Source: a virus
DNA length: 64,000 nt
IMG/VR virus record: IMGVR_UViG_3300028563_000014
Location: 1 to 64,000 of that record
Reading direction: 5' to 3' (one strand)
The notes under the pieces were generated by a model that worked only from the letters and a program-made list of their open reading frames with translations, did not search any database and was not told the origin of the DNA. Below, in pieces: positions 4,063 to 30,986 of this stretch. Positions within the stretch are counted from its first letter, which is position 1. The number at the start of each line of letters is the position of its first letter. A program made the position numbers and the translations under genes.

Positions 4063-5496
4063 TCAGGCGCGGTCGTCGTCCCGCTCGGCCGCGTCGTAGA
4101 AAGCCATGAACCGGCCGTCCCAGTCCACGTCGACCTCCCCCTCCGGACCCTCCCGGTGCTTCGCCACGATGATGCTGGCCGGCACCGGGCCCTTGGACGC
4201 GCCGCGGACGCCCGGGTCGCGCCAGGGGAACAGCACCAGGTCCGCGTCCTGCTCGACCGAACCCGAGTCGCGCAGGTCGGCCAGGATCGGCTTCCGGCTC
4301 ACCCCGCCCTTACCGCCCTTCTCGCTCTCGCGGTTCAACTGGGAGACCAGGGCGATCGGGCAGTGCAGCTCCTTCGCCAGCTTCTTGAACCGGCGGGTGA
4401 TCTTGGTGACCACCTGCGTCCGGTTCTCGCTGTCGGACGACTCCTCCACCTCGACCAGGCCGAGATAGTCGACGGCGATCACCTTGCGCACCTTGGTCGG
4501 CGGCTCGCGCTTCTCGGTCAGCGCCTTCGCCCGCGCCTCGCGGTCGATCTTCGCCGCCCAGCGCCTGGCCTCGGAGCAGATCTGCCGGAGCCCCAGCGCG
4601 TCCGTGTTGATGTGCAGGTCGAGCGGCGCCAGCTTCTTCCCCGCGTCATGGACCTTGATCCACTCCTTGGTGTCGATCTTCGCCCGGGAGATCCGGTTCC
4701 CCGTCACTTGCCCGACGAACGCCAGGCCCCGCTCGATCAGCTGCTGCCGACTCATCTCCAGCGAGAACATCAGCGTCGGCACTCCGCCCATCGACATCCG
4801 GATCAGCGTCGACCAGGCCAGCGACGACTTGCCCTTGCCCGGGCGCGCCGCGATCACGATGACCTGCTCCTCGCGCCACCCGCCGATCTTCTCGTCGTAC
4901 TCGCGCAGACCGGTCTGCACCTCGTACTCGTCGGGCTTGTCTTGCTTGTTCTGGATCTCGTCGATCCCGTGCTGGAGCACGTCGCCCAGGCGCACCGTCC
5001 CCGCTCCCATCGGGACCTCGAGGTTCGCCACCGCCGTCCGGTGCTCGGCGACCAGGTCGTGCACGTCCTCCTCGCCGTGCGCGCGCAGGACGATCTCCGT
5101 CGCCGCCTTGATCAGCCGGCGCCGGACGGCGAAGTCCCGCACCTGGCGCGCGTAATGCGGGACGTCCTCGCCGGTCGAGACGACGTCCATGAGCCTCGTC
5201 AGGTAGATCTCTCCGTCTTCCAGCCGCGACAGCTGCCCCCGCAGCCGCAGCTCGTCGGCCAGAAAGACCGGGTTGATCGGCTTCCCGGTCGTCACCAGGT
5301 GGCGCATGGCCTCGTAGATCTCCCGGTGCGCCGGCATGTAGAACTCGTCCGCGTCCCGCAGGAACAGCGTCACGTCCTCCATCGCGGACGGCTTGATCAG
5401 CACGCTCCCCAGCACCGCCTGCTCCGCCTTCAGCGAGTAGGGCATGGGCCGGCTGTTCGGGAGAGGAGACCTCGGGTCCTTCTCGCTGTGTTTCAC
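4063..5496 (-). CDS. dnaB: Replicative DNA helicase, DnaB family
   Basis: A 477-aa DnaB-type helicase. The N-terminal helical domain (about 20-150) begins SLKAEQAVLGSVL, typical of DnaB. The RecA-like core has Walker A ARPGKGKS at residues 217-224, LMFSLEMS near 242-249, Walker B VIAVDYLG with Asp343, and ALVSQLNRE and ADLRDSGSVEQDAD further on. It unwinds the fork ahead of the phage replisome. The start is GTG, overlapping the stop of a 4-codon minigene as GTGA. It is near full length for the family. Confidence 0.95.
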   Translation of the reverse strand: MKHSEKDPRSPLPNSRPMPYSLKAEQAVLGSVLIKPSAMEDVTLFLRDADEFYMPAHREIYEAMRHLVTTGKPINPVFLADELRLRGQLSRLEDGEIYLTRLMDVVSTGEDVPHYARQVRDFAVRRRLIKAATEIVLRAHGEEDVHDLVAEHRTAVANLEVPMGAGTVRLGDVLQHGIDEIQNKQDKPDEYEVQTGLREYDEKIGGWREEQVIVIAARPGKGKSSLAWSTLIRMSMGGVPTLMFSLEMSRQQLIERGLAFVGQVTGNRISRAKIDTKEWIKVHDAGKKLAPLDLHINTDALGLRQICSEARRWAAKIDREARAKALTEKREPPTKVRKVIAVDYLGLVEVEESSDSENRTQVVTKITRRFKKLAKELHCPIALVSQLNRESEKGGKGGVSRKPILADLRDSGSVEQDADLVLFPWRDPGVRGASKGPVPASIIVAKHREGPEGEVDVDWDGRFMAFYDAAERDDDRA

Positions 5497-8628: not shown

Positions 8629-10032
8629 TCACGCGCGCTCCATCGCCGACAGGTCGTCCTCGCGCACCACCCGCGTCTCGTACCCGCGGGACCGGTAGGC
8701 CTCCATCCGCAGGCGCGCGTGCGCCTCAAGCCAGCGGTTGCCGACATCGAGGAAGTCCCAATAGCGCACCAGCTCCTTCTCGCCGGCGATCCGCATCAGT
8801 CGGCCGGGCTTCTGGATGGCGTCGATCCGGGAGCGGCCCGCGGCCAGGTTCACCGCGCTCTCGACGAACGGGATGTCGACCCCCTTGTTGAAGATCTTGG
8901 AGACCACCAGCACGTCTGACCGCCCGGTGTTCAGGCGGATCTTCGCCCCGTTGCGCGCGTTGGTGCTGTTCACGCCGGAGATGTACTCGGTGCGCACGCC
9001 CGCGGCCTCGAGGCGCCCCATGAACGCGCGTCCGTGCGGGACGGCCTTCACGAAGGCCAGCGCAGGCCGCGGGCACAGGACCGGAGAGGAAGCGATCCGA
9101 GCGGCGATCCGGTTCCGGTCGGCGTTCAGCACCACCCCCGCCTCATAGACCTCGCTCCAGGACCCGGTCATCCGGTGCTGATGGAACTGGATCATCAGGA
9201 TTTCGATGCGCGCCAGGACCCCGGCGTCGACCAGCTCCTTCACCGGGACGTCCACGATCAGCGGGCCCAGCGCCTCGATCGTCCGGTAGTCGTCCTCGTC
9301 CTCGCGCTCCAACGGGGTGGCCGACAGGCCCACCCTCCAGTAGGCGTTCGGGGTGGCCATGGCCACCTTGTGGCTCTCGCCCGGCGCCAGGACCTGGACC
9401 TCGTCGCACACCAGGCCCTGGGCGCCCTCCAGCAGCTCGTCGACTTCGCCCCCCTCGCCGATGCCGCGTAGCAGCGCCTGGAGGGTCGCCACGGTCACCC
9501 GGCGCGGGTCCTTCTCGCCGTCGCCCCAGAGCCCCGCCCGCTCGCCCGTGCGCAGGAAGATCCGGTCGGCGGCCTGGTGCATCAGGTCTTTCGTGTCGAC
9601 CAGGATCAGCCACCGGACGGGGACGGCCTGGGCCAGGGCGGCAAACAGTTCCGATTTTCCCGATCCTGTTGGCATGGCGACGATCCCGCGCCTCCGCTCA
9701 AGGATTCGCTCCAGGACGGGCGTTTGATACGACCGCAGCCAAGCCCCGGCCGAGGCGTTCAACGTCACCCTGGGCTCGCGGCGGACGTCCTGGAGCTCGA
9801 TCTGGACCCCGGCCTCGCGCGCCCGGCCCACCACCATCCGGACAAGCCCGGCCCCGAACCGCTGGCGCCGCTCGTCCAGGAGCCGAGTGGAGCCGTCCCA
9901 GACGCCGTTCTGGTAGGCGTCCGTGTGCTCCGCCCCCTTCACCGGAACGGTCAGGTACTGGCGGAGCCAGGCCAGATCCTCTGGGGAGGCGTCCTCGACC
10001 CGCGCCCAGAGGTTGTCAGCGATCAGTTTCAA
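8629..10032 (-). CDS. SF2 DNA/RNA helicase, UvsW-like
   Basis: A 467-aa superfamily 2 helicase. Motif I PTGSGKS is at residues 121-127, motif II is DEVQ at 210-213, motif III SATP at 237-240, and a motif VI-like IDAIQKPGRLMRI lies towards the C-terminus. A short N-terminal domain precedes the helicase core, as in T4 UvsW, which resolves recombination intermediates and R-loops. The start is TTG at 10032, overlapping the previous stop as TTGA with GGAAGGG upstream. An earlier in-frame start at 10323 is rejected because it runs through the preceding gene. Confidence 0.85.
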   Translation of the reverse strand: MKLIADNLWARVEDASPEDLAWLRQYLTVPVKGAEHTDAYQNGVWDGSTRLLDERRQRFGAGLVRMVVGRAREAGVQIELQDVRREPRVTLNASAGAWLRSYQTPVLERILERRRGIVAMPTGSGKSELFAALAQAVPVRWLILVDTKDLMHQAADRIFLRTGERAGLWGDGEKDPRRVTVATLQALLRGIGEGGEVDELLEGAQGLVCDEVQVLAPGESHKVAMATPNAYWRVGLSATPLEREDEDDYRTIEALGPLIVDVPVKELVDAGVLARIEILMIQFHQHRMTGSWSEVYEAGVVLNADRNRIAARIASSPVLCPRPALAFVKAVPHGRAFMGRLEAAGVRTEYISGVNSTNARNGAKIRLNTGRSDVLVVSKIFNKGVDIPFVESAVNLAAGRSRIDAIQKPGRLMRIAGEKELVRYWDFLDVGNRWLEAHARLRMEAYRSRGYETRVVREDDLSAMERA

Positions 10033-11400: not shown

Positions 11401-11429
11401 ACCGTAATCAAGTCTGTTTCTTCTCGCAA
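11401..11429 (-). promoter_or_regulatory. Candidate promoter of the sigma-like gene
   Basis: Minus strand: TTGCGA (11429-11424), 17 nt, TACGGT (11406-11401), about 85 nt upstream of the sigma-like ATG. The 9-mer ATTACGGTA recurs at a second candidate near 14112. Not the 18-nt-spaced late class. Confidence 0.4.
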
Positions 11430-11947
11430 CCATTCGGCGTAGGCAGGGCGATCAGCCACTGCGCGATCTGGACGGCGCGGTCCTGCAGCTGCTCCGGAGG
11501 GATACCGCCGCGCCGCTGGCGCCAGTGGGCCCAGCGCTCCATCCGCCGGTCCTGGCGGTTCAGGCCGTCCAGGAGCTGCCGCAGGTTCTTGACCAACTCG
11601 TCCTTGTCAGGCAACGCTACTGGGTGCACGGCTGGTGCCTCTGTCGTTCGGGGCGCTTCTGGTGCGGGGACATCGGGCAGGACCCCCGGCTCGTTCGTGA
11701 CGGGCGAGCCGGGGTCATCCTGGAGCAGGGCGCGTAGCTGGACCTTGTAGATCGGCATCTCGCAGATGAGGCCGTCCACCGTGACCAGCGCCTTCCACCA
11801 GCCCGGGAGGACGCCGTTCGGAGCGAGCGGGGCGATCACTTCGCCAGACGCCCCGGGAGGCACCCGGACCGTGGCCTTCGGGTCATCCGCCCCCCGGGGC
11901 CAGGCGCCCCACCAGTCGCCGCGGATGACGAACTTCTTGCCGACCAC
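11408..11947 (-). CDS. Hypothetical protein, 179 aa
   Basis: Starts GTG at 11947 (VGKKFVIRGDWWGAW). The N-terminal 65 residues look like a small beta-barrel (KATVRVPPGASGEVIAP, WWKALVTVDG), followed by a Pro-rich linker and a C-terminal helical domain (ELVKNLRQLLDGLNRQDRRM). There is no good ribosome-binding site of its own. An 8-codon minigene ending one base upstream may supply ribosomes. Function unknown. Confidence 0.65.
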   Translation of the reverse strand: MVGKKFVIRGDWWGAWPRGADDPKATVRVPPGASGEVIAPLAPNGVLPGWWKALVTVDGLICEMPIYKVQLRALLQDDPGSPVTNEPGVLPDVPAPEAPRTTEAPAVHPVALPDKDELVKNLRQLLDGLNRQDRRMERWAHWRQRRGGIPPEQLQDRAVQIAQWLIALPTPNGCEKKQT

Positions 11948-11948
11948 G

Positions 11949-11975
11949 TCAGACCAGAACCTTGCTCGTCTTCAT
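11949..11975 (-). other. Leader minigene MKTSKVLV
   Basis: An 8-codon ORF with a good AAAGGAT ribosome-binding site, whose TGA ends 1 nt before the GTG start of the downstream 179-aa gene. It looks like a translational-coupling leader. Confidence 0.4.
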
Positions 11976-12058
11976 GTGCGATCCTTTCGTCGGTCAGTTA
12001 TCCAGGCGAACTCAGCCGTTGCCGTACGCGCCCAGGTGCGTCCCGATCCCGCGCGCCA

Positions 12059-12247: not shown

Positions 12248-12287
12248 GGTGTCTCCTCGGTTCGTGTTGTTGCAGGCGACCTCAGCG

Positions 12288-12318
12288 GCGACGGGCTTGC
12301 CTGGTTGGTGGTTAGTCG
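12288..12318 (-). repeat. Intergenic repeat, copy A
   Basis: A 31-bp sequence matching 12885-12915 at 29 of 31 positions. Both copies lie at or just after a gene's stop. On the minus strand copy B forms CCAGGC-(9 nt)-GCCTGG; copy A can form a looser version. Possibly an attenuator, terminator or recombination joint. Confidence 0.7.
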
Positions 12319-12834
12319 TCAGTTGCCTCTCGAACTCCTCGCGTAGCCGGCGCAGCGTCGCCACTCCTTCGCGTCCGTCTTCGAGACGCGCTTCTTCAGG
12401 TTCTCCAGCTTGGCCTTCGGGTCGATGCCCTCCTCCGCCGCCCGGGTGATCTTCTCCGCGGTCTCGGCGATCTTGACCTCGGAGAGCAGCGCCCGAGCCG
12501 TGTCGCGCGCGGCCGAGACCGCCGTCCGCGTGTCCAGCTCCAGCGTCTGCTGCGACCACTCGACGTCGTCCGTCAGCTGGCGCCCGAGGTGCACCTGGCG
12601 CAGCGCCTGCTCCATCGTCATCCCGTTCCAGCAGGCCAGCCGGTTCGCGAAGGCGTGCAGGTTGTTGGCGCCGGCGCCGAAGTCGCTCCAGGCGAAGCCG
12701 AACACCATGAACTCGCCGGGCGCCGGCTCGAAGATCCGGGGGACGATGAACTTCATCGTCACCCGGATGTCCGAGCCCCGACCATCGACCACGATCGCCC
12801 CGGCGCGCTGCGCCTCGCCGATCAGAGTGTCCAA
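12319..12834 (-). CDS. DUF932-like protein, C-terminal half (split gene)
   Basis: 171 aa: DTLIGEAQRAGAIVVDG, then FIVPRIFEPAPGEFMVFGFAW, DFGAGANNLHAFANRLACWNGM, LRQVHLG and a helical C-terminus. This is the second half of the phage/plasmid DUF932 (TIGR03299-like) domain. The N-terminal half is a separate ORF at 13229-13708. The start is a TTG at 12834 with AAGGAG 9 nt upstream, so it appears separately translated. A 24-bp direct repeat shared with the N-half spans its first codons. Function of the family is unknown. Confidence 0.7.
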   Translation of the reverse strand: MDTLIGEAQRAGAIVVDGRGSDIRVTMKFIVPRIFEPAPGEFMVFGFAWSDFGAGANNLHAFANRLACWNGMTMEQALRQVHLGRQLTDDVEWSQQTLELDTRTAVSAARDTARALLSEVKIAETAEKITRAAEEGIDPKAKLENLKKRVSKTDAKEWRRCAGYARSSRGN

Positions 12835-12837
12835 GAT
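12814..12837 (-). repeat. 24-bp direct repeat, copy 1 (split DUF932 junction)
   Basis: Identical to 13241-13264. It encodes (I)LDTLIGE in both halves of the split gene, and the 403 bp between the copies hold the inserted cassette. Confidence 0.9.
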
Positions 12838-12884
12838 TCGATTCTCCTTTTCGGTTGGTTCGGTTCGGTTAGTTGGTTATCCAG

Positions 12885-12915
12885 GCGACGCGCTTGCCTG
12901 GTCGGTGGTTAGTCG
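12885..12915 (-). repeat. Intergenic repeat, copy B
   Basis: Partner of 12288-12318, 29 of 31 identical. It lies within the cassette inserted into the DUF932-like gene and overlaps the end of the cassette gene. A 12-bp part (CGCCTGGATAAC) recurs near 11997-12008. Confidence 0.7.
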
Positions 12916-13232
12916 ATGCTGCGCTCGGCTCGAATGGCGGCGCGCGTCGCCTTGCCCATCGCAGCCAGCTTGCGCTGCATGCACTTGACGACCTCTGCCA
13001 TGTTCGCGGCAGGGTCCGTCACGGTCTCGGATACGCCGTTGCCCGTGCGCGCGTCTGTGAGCCGCAGGCTCACAGAAATGAGCCGCACGACCTCGCCCGT
13101 GTATGTCCCGTCGGGATTCTGCGGGGCATGGTCGCGGGACTTTGCAAGCGCCTCGATCTTTGGGGCGGCGGCCTTTGCGTCAGCCACCAGCTTCGCTGCC
13201 TCAGTCGCTGTCATCGTCGTCGTCGTCGTCAT
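12909..13232 (-). CDS. Inserted cassette protein, 107 aa
   Basis: Begins MTTTTTMTATEAAKLVADAK, with an ATG and GAC/GTC-like repeats in the first codons, and ATGA overlap with the truncated N-half of the DUF932 gene. The rest is a helical/beta mix (YTGEVVRLISVSLRLTDART; a basic helix at the end). It is unrecognised. It sits between the two halves of a split gene and inside a 24-bp direct repeat, so it looks like a recent insertion. Confidence 0.65.
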   Translation of the reverse strand: MTTTTTMTATEAAKLVADAKAAAPKIEALAKSRDHAPQNPDGTYTGEVVRLISVSLRLTDARTGNGVSETVTDPAANMAEVVKCMQRKLAAMGKATRAAIRAERSID

Positions 13233-13708
13233 GAAAACCACTCGCCGATCAGAGTGTCCAAGATCGGCCGGGCATCGATGCGCCGGAACTTCGAGGACAG
13301 GACCGCGCGGACCTCCGTGCCTACGCGGCGGACCAGGTAACGCGACTTCTCCTGTCCCATGTGGACGCCGTCGTTCAGGTTGCGGGCCAGGAGCTCGGTT
13401 CCCCACTGCCCCTGCGTCAGCAGGTGGTCGGCGTAGGCCATCGGCATCTTGGCCTGCTCGGACAGGTGATTCAGCGCGTGCCGGTGGACCTGGTAGAAGG
13501 TGCCGGCGCCGACCGCCACCCCCACCTCGCCCGGGCGCGTGGCGGTGAAATTCAGGGCGGTGGCGCGGGCCACGGCGTCCTCCGGGATCTCGCGCAGGAT
13601 GCGCTCCTGCAGCCCGACGGCGCGGGCCTGGCCCTGGGCGATGTACTGCTCCAGGCGGGACTGGGCAACCTGGCGCTGGGCGGGGGTGGAGGCGATGAGG
13701 TTCGACAT
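13229..13708 (-). CDS. DUF932-like protein, N-terminal half (split gene)
   Basis: 159 aa starting MSNLIASTPAQRQ with AAAGGA upstream. It contains FYQVHRHALNHLSEQAKMP, YADHLLTQGQWGTELLARNLN and YLVRRVGTEVRAVLSSKFRRID, typical of the N-terminal part of DUF932 proteins. The ORF reads RPILDTLIGE and then stops after three unrelated residues. Joined through the repeat to the ORF at 12319 it would make about 320 aa, the usual size of the family. Confidence 0.75.
   Translation of the reverse strand: MSNLIASTPAQRQVAQSRLEQYIAQGQARAVGLQERILREIPEDAVARATALNFTATRPGEVGVAVGAGTFYQVHRHALNHLSEQAKMPMAYADHLLTQGQWGTELLARNLNDGVHMGQEKSRYLVRRVGTEVRAVLSSKFRRIDARPILDTLIGEWFS
13241..13264 (-). repeat. 24-bp direct repeat, copy 2 (split DUF932 junction)
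   Basis: Identical to 12814-12837. It marks the upstream edge of the inserted cassette. Confidence 0.9.
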
Positions 13709-14387: not shown

Positions 14388-14953
14388 CCGAGCAGCCCGA
14401 GCGCCTTTTGTCTGCCGTAATGCGCGAGGAACAGTGCGTCCGCGCGGTCGACCAGGAGCGCGCCGCGTGGCCCGCGCAGATGCGCCGCCGCCGCTGGGTA
14501 GAGCTGGCAGATAGCCGGGACCGCCGCCTCCTTCGTCTTCGGCTGGCCGGCGAGCAGCCGCGCCTTCCAGGTGACCGCGGCGACGATGTCGTAGGGGATC
14601 CCGAGCGCGGCCAGCAGGCCCTGCCAGATCCCGAACCCCTCGCCGGCGGCGAACGCGTACTGCGCTCCCATCGGGATGATGCGAGTCCCGATCCGCCGGG
14701 GCTGCGCCGTCGCGCGCTCCAGCGTCAGCGACGCCAGCCGAGCGTTGCGCAGGATCAGCGCCATCTCCGCCGGCAGGTAGACGCGCTTCTTCTTCTTGTT
14801 CCCGGCCTTCGTCTTCGTCGTCAGCTCGACCTCGATGGTCGGGACGTCGAAGAACTGAACCGACAGGTCCGGTCGGATCACCGCCAGGGCGCCGTCCTTC
14901 CCCGGATCGATGCCACCGAACGACTGCCCCTCTGCGAACGTGGTTTGGCTCAT
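14384..14953 (-). CDS. RuvC-like Holliday-junction resolvase
   Basis: A 189-aa RNase-H-fold nuclease. The first acidic ligand lies in GGIDPGKDGALAVI (Asp16), LTLERATAQPRR supplies the second Glu, and the C-terminal VDRADALFLAHYG supplies the last Asp. The phage-type insertion GFGIWQGLLAALGIPYDIV is present. It would resolve branched DNA before packaging. The ATG at 14953 overlaps a 5-codon minigene stop. A longer upstream frame is a shadow. Confidence 0.85.
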   Translation of the reverse strand: MSQTTFAEGQSFGGIDPGKDGALAVIRPDLSVQFFDVPTIEVELTTKTKAGNKKKKRVYLPAEMALILRNARLASLTLERATAQPRRIGTRIIPMGAQYAFAAGEGFGIWQGLLAALGIPYDIVAAVTWKARLLAGQPKTKEAAVPAICQLYPAAAAHLRGPRGALLVDRADALFLAHYGRQKALGLLG

Positions 14954-14967
14954 GGTACCCAGATCAT
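14950..14967 (-). other. Minigene MIWVP before the RuvC-like gene
   Basis: ATG ATC TGG GTA CCA TGA, with TGA overlapping the downstream ATG (ATGA) and its own ATG inside a CGGACAATGATC repeat. The same arrangement occurs before dnaB. Confidence 0.4.
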
Positions 14968-14973
14968 TGTCCG
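14962..14973 (-). repeat. CGGACAATGATC 12-mer, copy 4
   Basis: Exact copy. Here and at 4035 it continues as CTGGG, making a 17-base match. Confidence 0.7.
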
Positions 14974-15000
14974 GGCCGAGGCCGCGCGGGCAAGGATGGA

Positions 15001-15483
15001 TCAGGCGGAGGGCGCGCCGGTCGTCGGCAGGACGGACACCGGCGTCGCCGCGGTCGCCGCCGCGCGCGCCACCTTCATCCCGAACACGGCTGCGGAGACC
15101 TTCGCCTCGAGGGCTGCCTGGAGTTGCTCGTCGTTCGGGAGCTGCAAGATCGTCTTTGCGCGCTCGATCCCCTCGGGGCCGAACTGCGCCTTGAGCTTGT
15201 CGACGGCGATCGCCCGGAGCTTCTTCTTGTCGTCCATGGACAGGGTTCCGTCCTGGATCCCGGCCTTGAGCTCGACCAGCTCGTGGGCGCTGATGTCCTT
15301 CACGATCTCGCTGATCTGCAGCGCCAGGCGCTCCCCGAATCCACGCGCCACCTCGTTCTTCACCCGGGCCTTCAGGAAGGCATTCCACTTATCCAGCAGG
15401 AAAGGGGACGCCGCAGTGACCATGACGCTCAGCAGCCCGAGGACCGCGATGATGAGCTTTACGACGGCATCAGAGAGGGACAT
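15001..15483 (-). CDS. Holin-like membrane protein (LLH-type candidate)
   Basis: 160 aa: a single N-terminal TM helix (about residues 8-30, VVKLIIAVLGLLSVMVTAAS) followed by a long charged cytoplasmic helical region. This is the layout of LLH-family holins. No Shine-Dalgarno is visible. Instead a TAGACG-N18-CACCAT promoter-like element ends 7 nt before the ATG. Position in a cluster with a papain-like protease and lipoproteins supports a lysis role, but a structural membrane protein is possible. Confidence 0.55.
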   Translation of the reverse strand: MSLSDAVVKLIIAVLGLLSVMVTAASPFLLDKWNAFLKARVKNEVARGFGERLALQISEIVKDISAHELVELKAGIQDGTLSMDDKKKLRAIAVDKLKAQFGPEGIERAKTILQLPNDEQLQAALEAKVSAAVFGMKVARAAATAATPVSVLPTTGAPSA

Positions 15484-29799: not shown

Positions 29800-30986
29800 G
29801 ACAGAGTGACCGTCGCCGTATAATTCAGGTTGAACGCCCCGTTCCCGAAGATCCCGAGACCGATTGCCCGGTAACCGGCACGCGGCCCAGCCACATAGGG
29901 AGCGGGGATGGCAACGGTGACATCTGTGACACTGCCCGCGCTGCTGCTGCTGTAGCTGAAGATCGTGCCAGCAATCGGGACGGTGGCCCCCGTCAGGTAG
30001 ATGTTCGTCCCTCCGCCCGACGTGATCGCATTCATGAGGCCGACGTAGCGCATGGTCGTCGCGCCAGCGAGAACGCACTGGTCGATCGAATACTCCATGG
30101 GGTCGGAACTCGGGAGCGTCGCGTGCCCGCCGGGAAACCACTGGCTCAGGCTACCGGCCCCGTCGAGGACGCCACCGAACTGAAAGGTGCCAAGGATCTT
30201 CGCCGAGACGGTCGGGTTCGGGCCGCCGCCGCCCCCGGGCACGTTGATACCCGGGCCGGCTAGGATAGCGAGGACGCCGGTGTTGTTGACGATCGGGCTG
30301 GTCGCTGTCCCGGTGATCGAGATGCCGGTGCCCGCGCGGACAGACGTGACCACGCCGGTCACGTTGATCACCGGGTTCTGCGCCGTACCGCTGATGGTGA
30401 CGTTGGTCCCTGCCGTCGCGGACAGGACGCCGGTGTTGTTGACGATCGGGTTCGCGCCGGTTCCGGTAATGGAGATGCCGGGGCCGGAAGACACGGAGAG
30501 GACGCCCGTGTTGTTGATGATCGGGTTCGTGGACGTGCCCGTGATGCTGATGCCGGGCCCGGCGCTGACAGACGCCACGGCAGCTCCGGGGCCTACGCCG
30601 GCTACCTGGATCGCTGCCCCGACCGCATCGTCATAGACGAACCATGCCTTACCACCGGCGCCCGTGGTCGTGTCAGCTCCGGCCAGGAGCTGCATGGGCA
30701 CGGTCCCACCCGGCGGTGACGCCGCGTTGTTCCCGAGCACCAGGGAGGACGGGAAGTAGAGCAGGAACTTTCGGCCGGGGAGCAGGTTGGTCGTCCCGAT
30801 AAAATTGACCCGCGTCGCCCCGGTGACGTGGAAGTAGTCCTCGATCCCAGGGGTGACGATGGCCGCGGACGCGATGTCGGCGCCGCGCAGTGACTGCTGG
30901 AAGATCGGAAAGTCCGTGGCCACCGCCGCCGCCGCCGAGGCGTTGACGCCGTGGATCTTCTCTCCCTTGGTAAAAACGTAGCCCAT
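29796..30986 (-). CDS. Fibre-like protein with GISITGT repeats
   Basis: 396 aa. A central block (about 138-250) contains five to six copies of a 24-residue repeat with GPGISITGTSTNPIINNTGV-like consensus, expected to fold as a beta-solenoid. The C-terminal domain (TFQFGGVLDGAGSLSQWF onward) is a beta-sandwich-like receptor or trimerisation domain. The next gene upstream carries the same repeats. Likely a tail-fibre component. Confidence 0.7.
   Translation of the reverse strand: MGYVFTKGEKIHGVNASAAAAVATDFPIFQQSLRGADIASAAIVTPGIEDYFHVTGATRVNFIGTTNLLPGRKFLLYFPSSLVLGNNAASPPGGTVPMQLLAGADTTTGAGGKAWFVYDDAVGAAIQVAGVGPGAAVASVSAGPGISITGTSTNPIINNTGVLSVSSGPGISITGTGANPIVNNTGVLSATAGTNVTISGTAQNPVINVTGVVTSVRAGTGISITGTATSPIVNNTGVLAILAGPGINVPGGGGGPNPTVSAKILGTFQFGGVLDGAGSLSQWFPGGHATLPSSDPMEYSIDQCVLAGATTMRYVGLMNAITSGGGTNIYLTGATVPIAGTIFSYSSSSAGSVTDVTVAIPAPYVAGPRAGYRAIGLGIFGNGAFNLNYTATVTLS

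Follow-up and report, generated by a model that had tools for sequence, protein, structure and literature searches.

A DUF932-like phage gene interrupted by an orphan reading frame and probably damaged by recent cassette recombination

Background

Phage genes split by inserted ORFs are known mainly in connection with homing endonucleases. In Aeromonas phage Aeh1 the gene nrdA is split by mobE and the NrdA protein was shown to be active (Friedrich et al. 2007, as described in PMC2988022), while in phage T4 the gene for the large subunit of topoisomerase is split by mobA and in Aeromonas phage 25 the DNA polymerase is split into 43A and 43B (PMC2988022). According to that account, the enzyme in each of the three cases forms, or is believed to form, from its pieces. 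Accessory regions of phages offer another comparison: the 'ORFanage' of S-PM2 is an example of an ORFan accessory block (PMC4503421), and the mobile regulatory cassettes of T4-type phages appear among the references listed in that same paper.

Here we describe a phage gene which is interrupted by an ORF of another kind. The window, meaning the whole stretch of DNA that was analysed, comprises the first 64,000 bases of the 87,462-base IMG/VR virus record IMGVR_UViG_3300028563_000014. On its minus strand three ORFs are transcribed in the order N, X and C', followed by two further small genes, K and W:

13229..13708, minus strand: N, N-terminal fragment of the DUF932-like (PHROG 1362) gene, 159 aa, from the ATG at 13708 to the TGA at 13229
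12909..13232, minus strand: X, orphan ORF of 107 aa, from the ATG at 13232 to the TAA at 12909, in ATGA overlap with the stop codon of N
12319..12834, minus strand: C' ORF, 171 aa, from the TTG at 12834 to the TGA at 12319
12364..12834, minus strand: homologous part of C', DUF932-like gene, equivalent to residues 154-312 of relative L006
12319..12363, minus strand: non-homologous 3' end of C', WRRCAGYARSSRGN and TGA, in place of a conserved tail of ~53 residues
12062..12247, minus strand: K, next small orphan gene downstream (MKTTYMITDGHG...), apparent frameshift at ~12088, same accessory block
11408..11947, minus strand: W, small gene after K (VVGKKFVIRGDWW...), with an RBS and ATG (11975) in another frame, same accessory block

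This locus is similar to nrdA/mobE of Aeh1 in that a short ORF lies inside a phage gene and two ORFs are found where relatives have one, and the coupling of X to the upstream fragment resembles that of mobE after nrdA in T4 (PMC2988022). It differs from the Aeh1 locus in three respects, namely the lack of a homing endonuclease signature in X, the presence of a 24-bp target duplication and the loss of the C-terminal tail. As with the T4 topoisomerase and the phage 25 polymerase, the gene is contiguous in relatives and is predicted to yield two polypeptides here; however, those two are essential enzymes for which activity of the pieces is shown or implied, and no comparable loss of a tail is described for them in the parts of PMC2988022 that concern us. 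The S-PM2 'ORFanage' is matched by an orphan block of odd composition between conserved genes, with the addition that the spacers are here partly shared. Compared with the mobile regulatory cassettes of T4-type phages, as far as these can be judged from their listing in PMC4503421, the shared spacers are present in only two or three copies, all of them local.

Results and discussion

The interrupted gene and its contiguous form in relatives

The coordinates of N, X and C' given in the original prediction were all verified on the minus strand, as were the 107-aa inserted gene, whose ATG overlaps the stop codon of N in an ATGA join, and the TTG start of C' with an AAGGAG placed 9 nt upstream.

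The identity of the gene was assessed against the DUF932 / LGT_TIGR03299 proteins of phages and plasmids (PF06067, PHROG 1362), to which it is linked by sequence through PHROG 1362 and by structure through the DUF932 models of BFVD. The two fragments match consecutive stretches of PHROG 1362, N at profile positions 70-162 (E 6e-6) and C' at 173-333 (E 5e-17) of 391. The intact relative L006 gave a confident predicted structure (pLDDT 85.8), and among the predicted viral structures of BFVD its best named matches are DUF932 domain proteins (E 5e-17 to 2e-15, query TM 0.49-0.68). The DUF932-like assignment thus holds by fold but not by curated Pfam membership: the N and C' fragments fell short of every Pfam family, PF06067 included, a search with PF06067 had no match in relatives L003, L004 and L002 either, and the best member tested, a protein of a Croceibacter phage, scored 16.7 bits for a cut-off of 23.

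Solved structures gave no sequence match and, with the L006 model, no significant fold match for the family. The same model repeatedly returned non-significant matches to RAD52 (E about 1). Together with the position of the gene between resolvase and UvsW-like helicase genes, these may hint at a role in recombination for PHROG 1362, which we regard as a lead and not as a result.

Scans of viral contigs recovered 22 distinct relatives, L006 and others which are 26-65% identical to it, and every one of them has a single open frame across the split point. Moreover, when 84 relative ORFs matching the window were compared, the DUF932-like gene was the only one interrupted with a change of frame, and this was seen from three different relatives. 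The insertion is therefore derived; the contiguous form is the ancestral one, and the window carries a derived insertional split. This is also the outcome of the alignment with uninterrupted relatives that had been proposed as a check, in which the N-X-C' order turned out not to be ancestral, the family being contiguous in 22 of 22. Since no other matched gene is disrupted, the contig is not generally error-ridden, and frequent sequencing indels were rejected as a general cause for the genes conserved in relatives.

In L007, the second-closest relative, a C run towards the 3' end of the gene (4955-5000) is longer by one base, so that the tail is read in a different frame, probably through homopolymer error or slippage.

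No near relative with the split was recovered by an exact search for the junction and by conserved-peptide scans of viral contigs, in collections that may omit records very near the window, and the contigs of bacterial and archaeal genomes contained no relative of X or C'.

The accessory block

Downstream of the DUF932-like gene, the relatives carry small genes which are different from those in the window. In relative L009 a tRNA-Met gene (5150-5222) lies directly downstream, which indicates that this position takes varied cargo.

Neither the viral, genome, phage and plasmid collections nor 13 records of related phages contain a relative of X, which also has no significant match in Pfam, PHROGs, NCBIfam or PADLOC. 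Its single-sequence structure model is weak (pLDDT 62) and of alpha-beta-beta-alpha arrangement. Likewise K has no relative in phage records or in the 13 related phage records, and W has no match in phage records or PHROGs. The three orphans stand low on a codon-usage score of the CAI type (X 0.51, K 0.57, W 0.575), N and C' reaching 0.78 and 0.88 and the core genes 0.58-0.87. In K the third-position G+C changes phase at ~12088, with the look of a one-base frame shift, and W is preceded by an RBS and ATG in another frame (11947-11975). Sequencing error or local decay are possible explanations for both and, for W, also a short leader peptide.

The block lies between the genes for a Holliday-junction resolvase and a UvsW-like helicase (8632-10032), the latter intein-free. 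In a related phage, L029 (IMGVR_UViG_3300028024_000007, G002), the UvsW-like helicase has an intein at the Walker A motif (14572-15380, MPTG/C...HN/SGK), recognized by Pfam Intein_splicing with 55.9 bits.

Direct repeats and shared spacers

Two pairs of direct repeats, R1 and R2, and a spacer, s1, mark the borders of the pieces:

13241..13264, minus strand: R1 copy a, direct repeat of 24 bp without mismatch, located within N
12814..12837, minus strand: R1 copy b, the 24-bp repeat again without mismatch, at the beginning of C'; the proposed start codon is the TTG in it
12884..12915, minus strand: R2 copy a, 32-bp direct repeat (30/32) that spans the X stop codon and the first bases of the spacer
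12838..12883, minus strand: spacer s1, of low G+C (46%), with the AAGGAG RBS for C' and with TCGCCTGGATAAC in common with the spacer after K
12287..12318, minus strand: R2 copy b, 32-bp direct repeat directly after the stop codon of C'

R1 reads ATC TTG GAC ACT CTG ATC GGC GAG and is in frame in both N and C', so that the earlier description of a perfect repeat encoding (I)LDTLIGE is exact. N ends in this duplicated ILDTLIGE, three new codons (WFS) and TGA. Only two copies are present in the window, where 0.00 are expected (100 shuffles, up to 3 mismatches). Both copies contain codons that are rare in the phage, TTG being used for 14 of 555 Leu and ACT for 16 of 406 Thr, and this, along with the exactness of the repeat, indicates identity by descent and a young age for the two copies. 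On these sequence grounds the split event seems to be recent.

R2 (30/32), which was absent from the original prediction, follows both X and C'. The spacers after X, C' and K (window 12884-12915, 12287-12318 and 11997-12009, respectively) share the 32 bp of R2, TCGCCTGGATAAC and GCTGAGKTCGCCTG; the spacer after K has 13 bases in common with that after X and 13 of 14 with that after C'. These shared spacers showed neither a promoter nor a terminator element. This sharing suggests that accessory cassettes may be shuffled or duplicated here via common spacers. Elsewhere in the window a second exact 24-bp direct repeat (AGGACGCCGGTGTTGTTGACGATC) occurs at 30271-30294 and 30424-30447; several relative ORFs have matches at repeated positions in this region.

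Loss of the C-terminal tail

The homology of C' ends at position 12364, which corresponds to residue 312 of the 365 residues of L006. Residues 313-365 (~53 residues, with the motif NSPDVVELPPGNTMWRFSNAISLVAR) are missing from C', and the tail sequence is absent across the whole 87-kb contig. The claim that the two halves together make a full-length protein was accordingly wrong, and the window does not hold a complete PHROG 1362 protein with its C-terminal tail. The lost part is conserved to the same degree as the C region (mean pairwise identity 0.407 for the tail, 0.408 for C and 0.336 for N) and helical in the L006 model, where it comprises part of helix 307-318 and the helices 331-343 and 348-363. 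In its place stand 14 codons (WRRCAGYARSSRGN) with a G+C of 0.43, 0.86 and 0.79 at positions 1-3, a base pattern that does not resemble this phage's coding sequence in the same frame. In addition, C' has a two-residue gap ahead of the conserved SD[FY]G motif.

Origin of the split

The explanation that we favour, with a probability of roughly 55%, is that a phage gene of DUF932 fold (PHROG 1362) was damaged by recent recombination of cassettes in a variable accessory block. The cassette would consist of the orphan X and its RBS-bearing spacer, placed inside the gene by short-homology or illegitimate (template-switch) recombination. Strand switching or short-homology repair would have resumed 24 bases upstream of the point of leaving, duplicating R1, and a second breakpoint at the border of the R2 repeat would have removed the last ~53 codons. 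N would keep using its own start, X would probably be translated by re-initiation at the ATGA and C' probably from the AAGGAG and TTG; the expression of these last two is predicted from their sequence signals. We infer the order and mechanism of these events from the end product in one contig, the only one where the split was seen. The product is likely to be impaired because the conserved helical tail is gone.

Several common origins of interrupted genes were rejected. There was no Rfam match above chance for an intron, the fold of the insert is only mildly stable (z -2.3) and the insert holds a coding region. An intein is discarded as N closes with a stop codon and the frame of X differs from that of N. 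A transposon with target-site duplication was set aside given the lack of a transposase match for X and of a convincing terminal inverted repeat by eye in an insert of 403 bp, and a homing endonuclease given that X matches no such family (HNH, GIY-YIG or similar).

The strongest alternative is a functional case of 'genes in pieces', as with NrdA of phage Aeh1: both N and C' would be made and would come together again as an active DUF932 protein, and through the duplicated helix segment LDTLIGE neither half would lack the boundary helix. Phages Aeh1 and T4 and Aeromonas phage 25 provide precedents (PMC2988022). Both ORFs are open and have their own starts, with the ATGA coupling and the AAGGAG RBS, and the family-invariant positions, as defined from ten relatives, are all unbroken (14 in N and 25 in C'). 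Moreover the break lies near the end of the predicted helix 150-163, just before a beta sheet, in the model of pLDDT 85.8, and the presence of ILDTLIGE in both halves could help their reassembly. Nevertheless, the last ~53 residues are encoded nowhere on the contig, which argues against full function, two residues are gone just before the conserved SD[FY]G, and the identity of the R1 copies suggests that the split is too recent for constraint to show. N and C' change no faster than L006 and L007 (with L008 as outgroup) and retain a strong third-position G+C (0.93 and 0.97, respectively). Judged from sequence features, the unbroken invariants, normal rates, third-position G+C and RBS of C' would fit a working split and a recent loss alike. 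We therefore consider this alternative possible but rather unlikely: recombination has more probably damaged the gene than divided it cleanly into a protein that still works. What had been proposed as a gene insertion giving a split protein rather than a pseudogene stands as regards the DUF932 fold, the contiguous ancestor (22 of 22), the inserted gene and plausible starts for both halves, but a split protein instead of a pseudogene cannot be concluded from a gene that has lost its tail and whose normal conservation is equally expected of a very recent event.

Damage by recombination of cassettes can also be weighed against a tandem duplication of a block R1-C-tail-X-R2 followed by complementary deletions, in which the first copy lost C and the tail and the second lost the tail and the larger part of X. 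Both repeats would thereby be accounted for together, and the observed order N-R1-X-R2-s1-R1-C'-R2 is the leftover expected from it; in addition, the alignment around R2 beats all of 1000 shuffles (56 and 31, respectively). Outside R2, however, the stretches do not align above shuffles (upstream 15.5, with shuffles up to 23; downstream 11, with shuffles up to 16), for which reason a simple tandem duplication was rejected as the sole cause. Moreover R1 is 100% identical, whereas repeats of equal age would be predicted to have equal identity. We regard this course of events as improbable.

An artefact of assembly, in which metagenome variants were chained through the 24-bp repeat or R2, is hardly probable. 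In its favour, a single uncultured contig carries the arrangement, searching for the N-R1-X junction gave no further copy of it, and the neighbours K and W look frame-shifted. Against this, no other relative-matched gene is disrupted, and X is open in frame and furnished with the ATGA join and the RBS spacer. A repeat of 24 bp is also shorter than the usual final k-mers of assembly, which counts against such chaining.

It is very improbable that R1 makes the split reversible, with recombination between its two copies deleting X and the spacer exactly and rejoining N and C' in frame, so that the population would switch between split and joined DUF932 and X would be a passenger for which the gene serves as a landing site and which provides a spacer and RBS for the downstream half; if this were true, X would be a cassette that encodes no endonuclease and can split genes yet leave them alive.

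Conclusions

Damage by recent recombination of cassettes, if this is indeed what befell the DUF932-like gene, has a bearing on how such loci are read. Two halves that are open and look conserved can pass wrongly for a working split protein. Damage to the DUF932-like gene would be tolerated in at least this phage genome, provided that the assembly is right. An orphan that is no endonuclease, together with a recent 24-bp duplication and the loss of a tail, would represent a way in which accessory cassettes break conserved genes.
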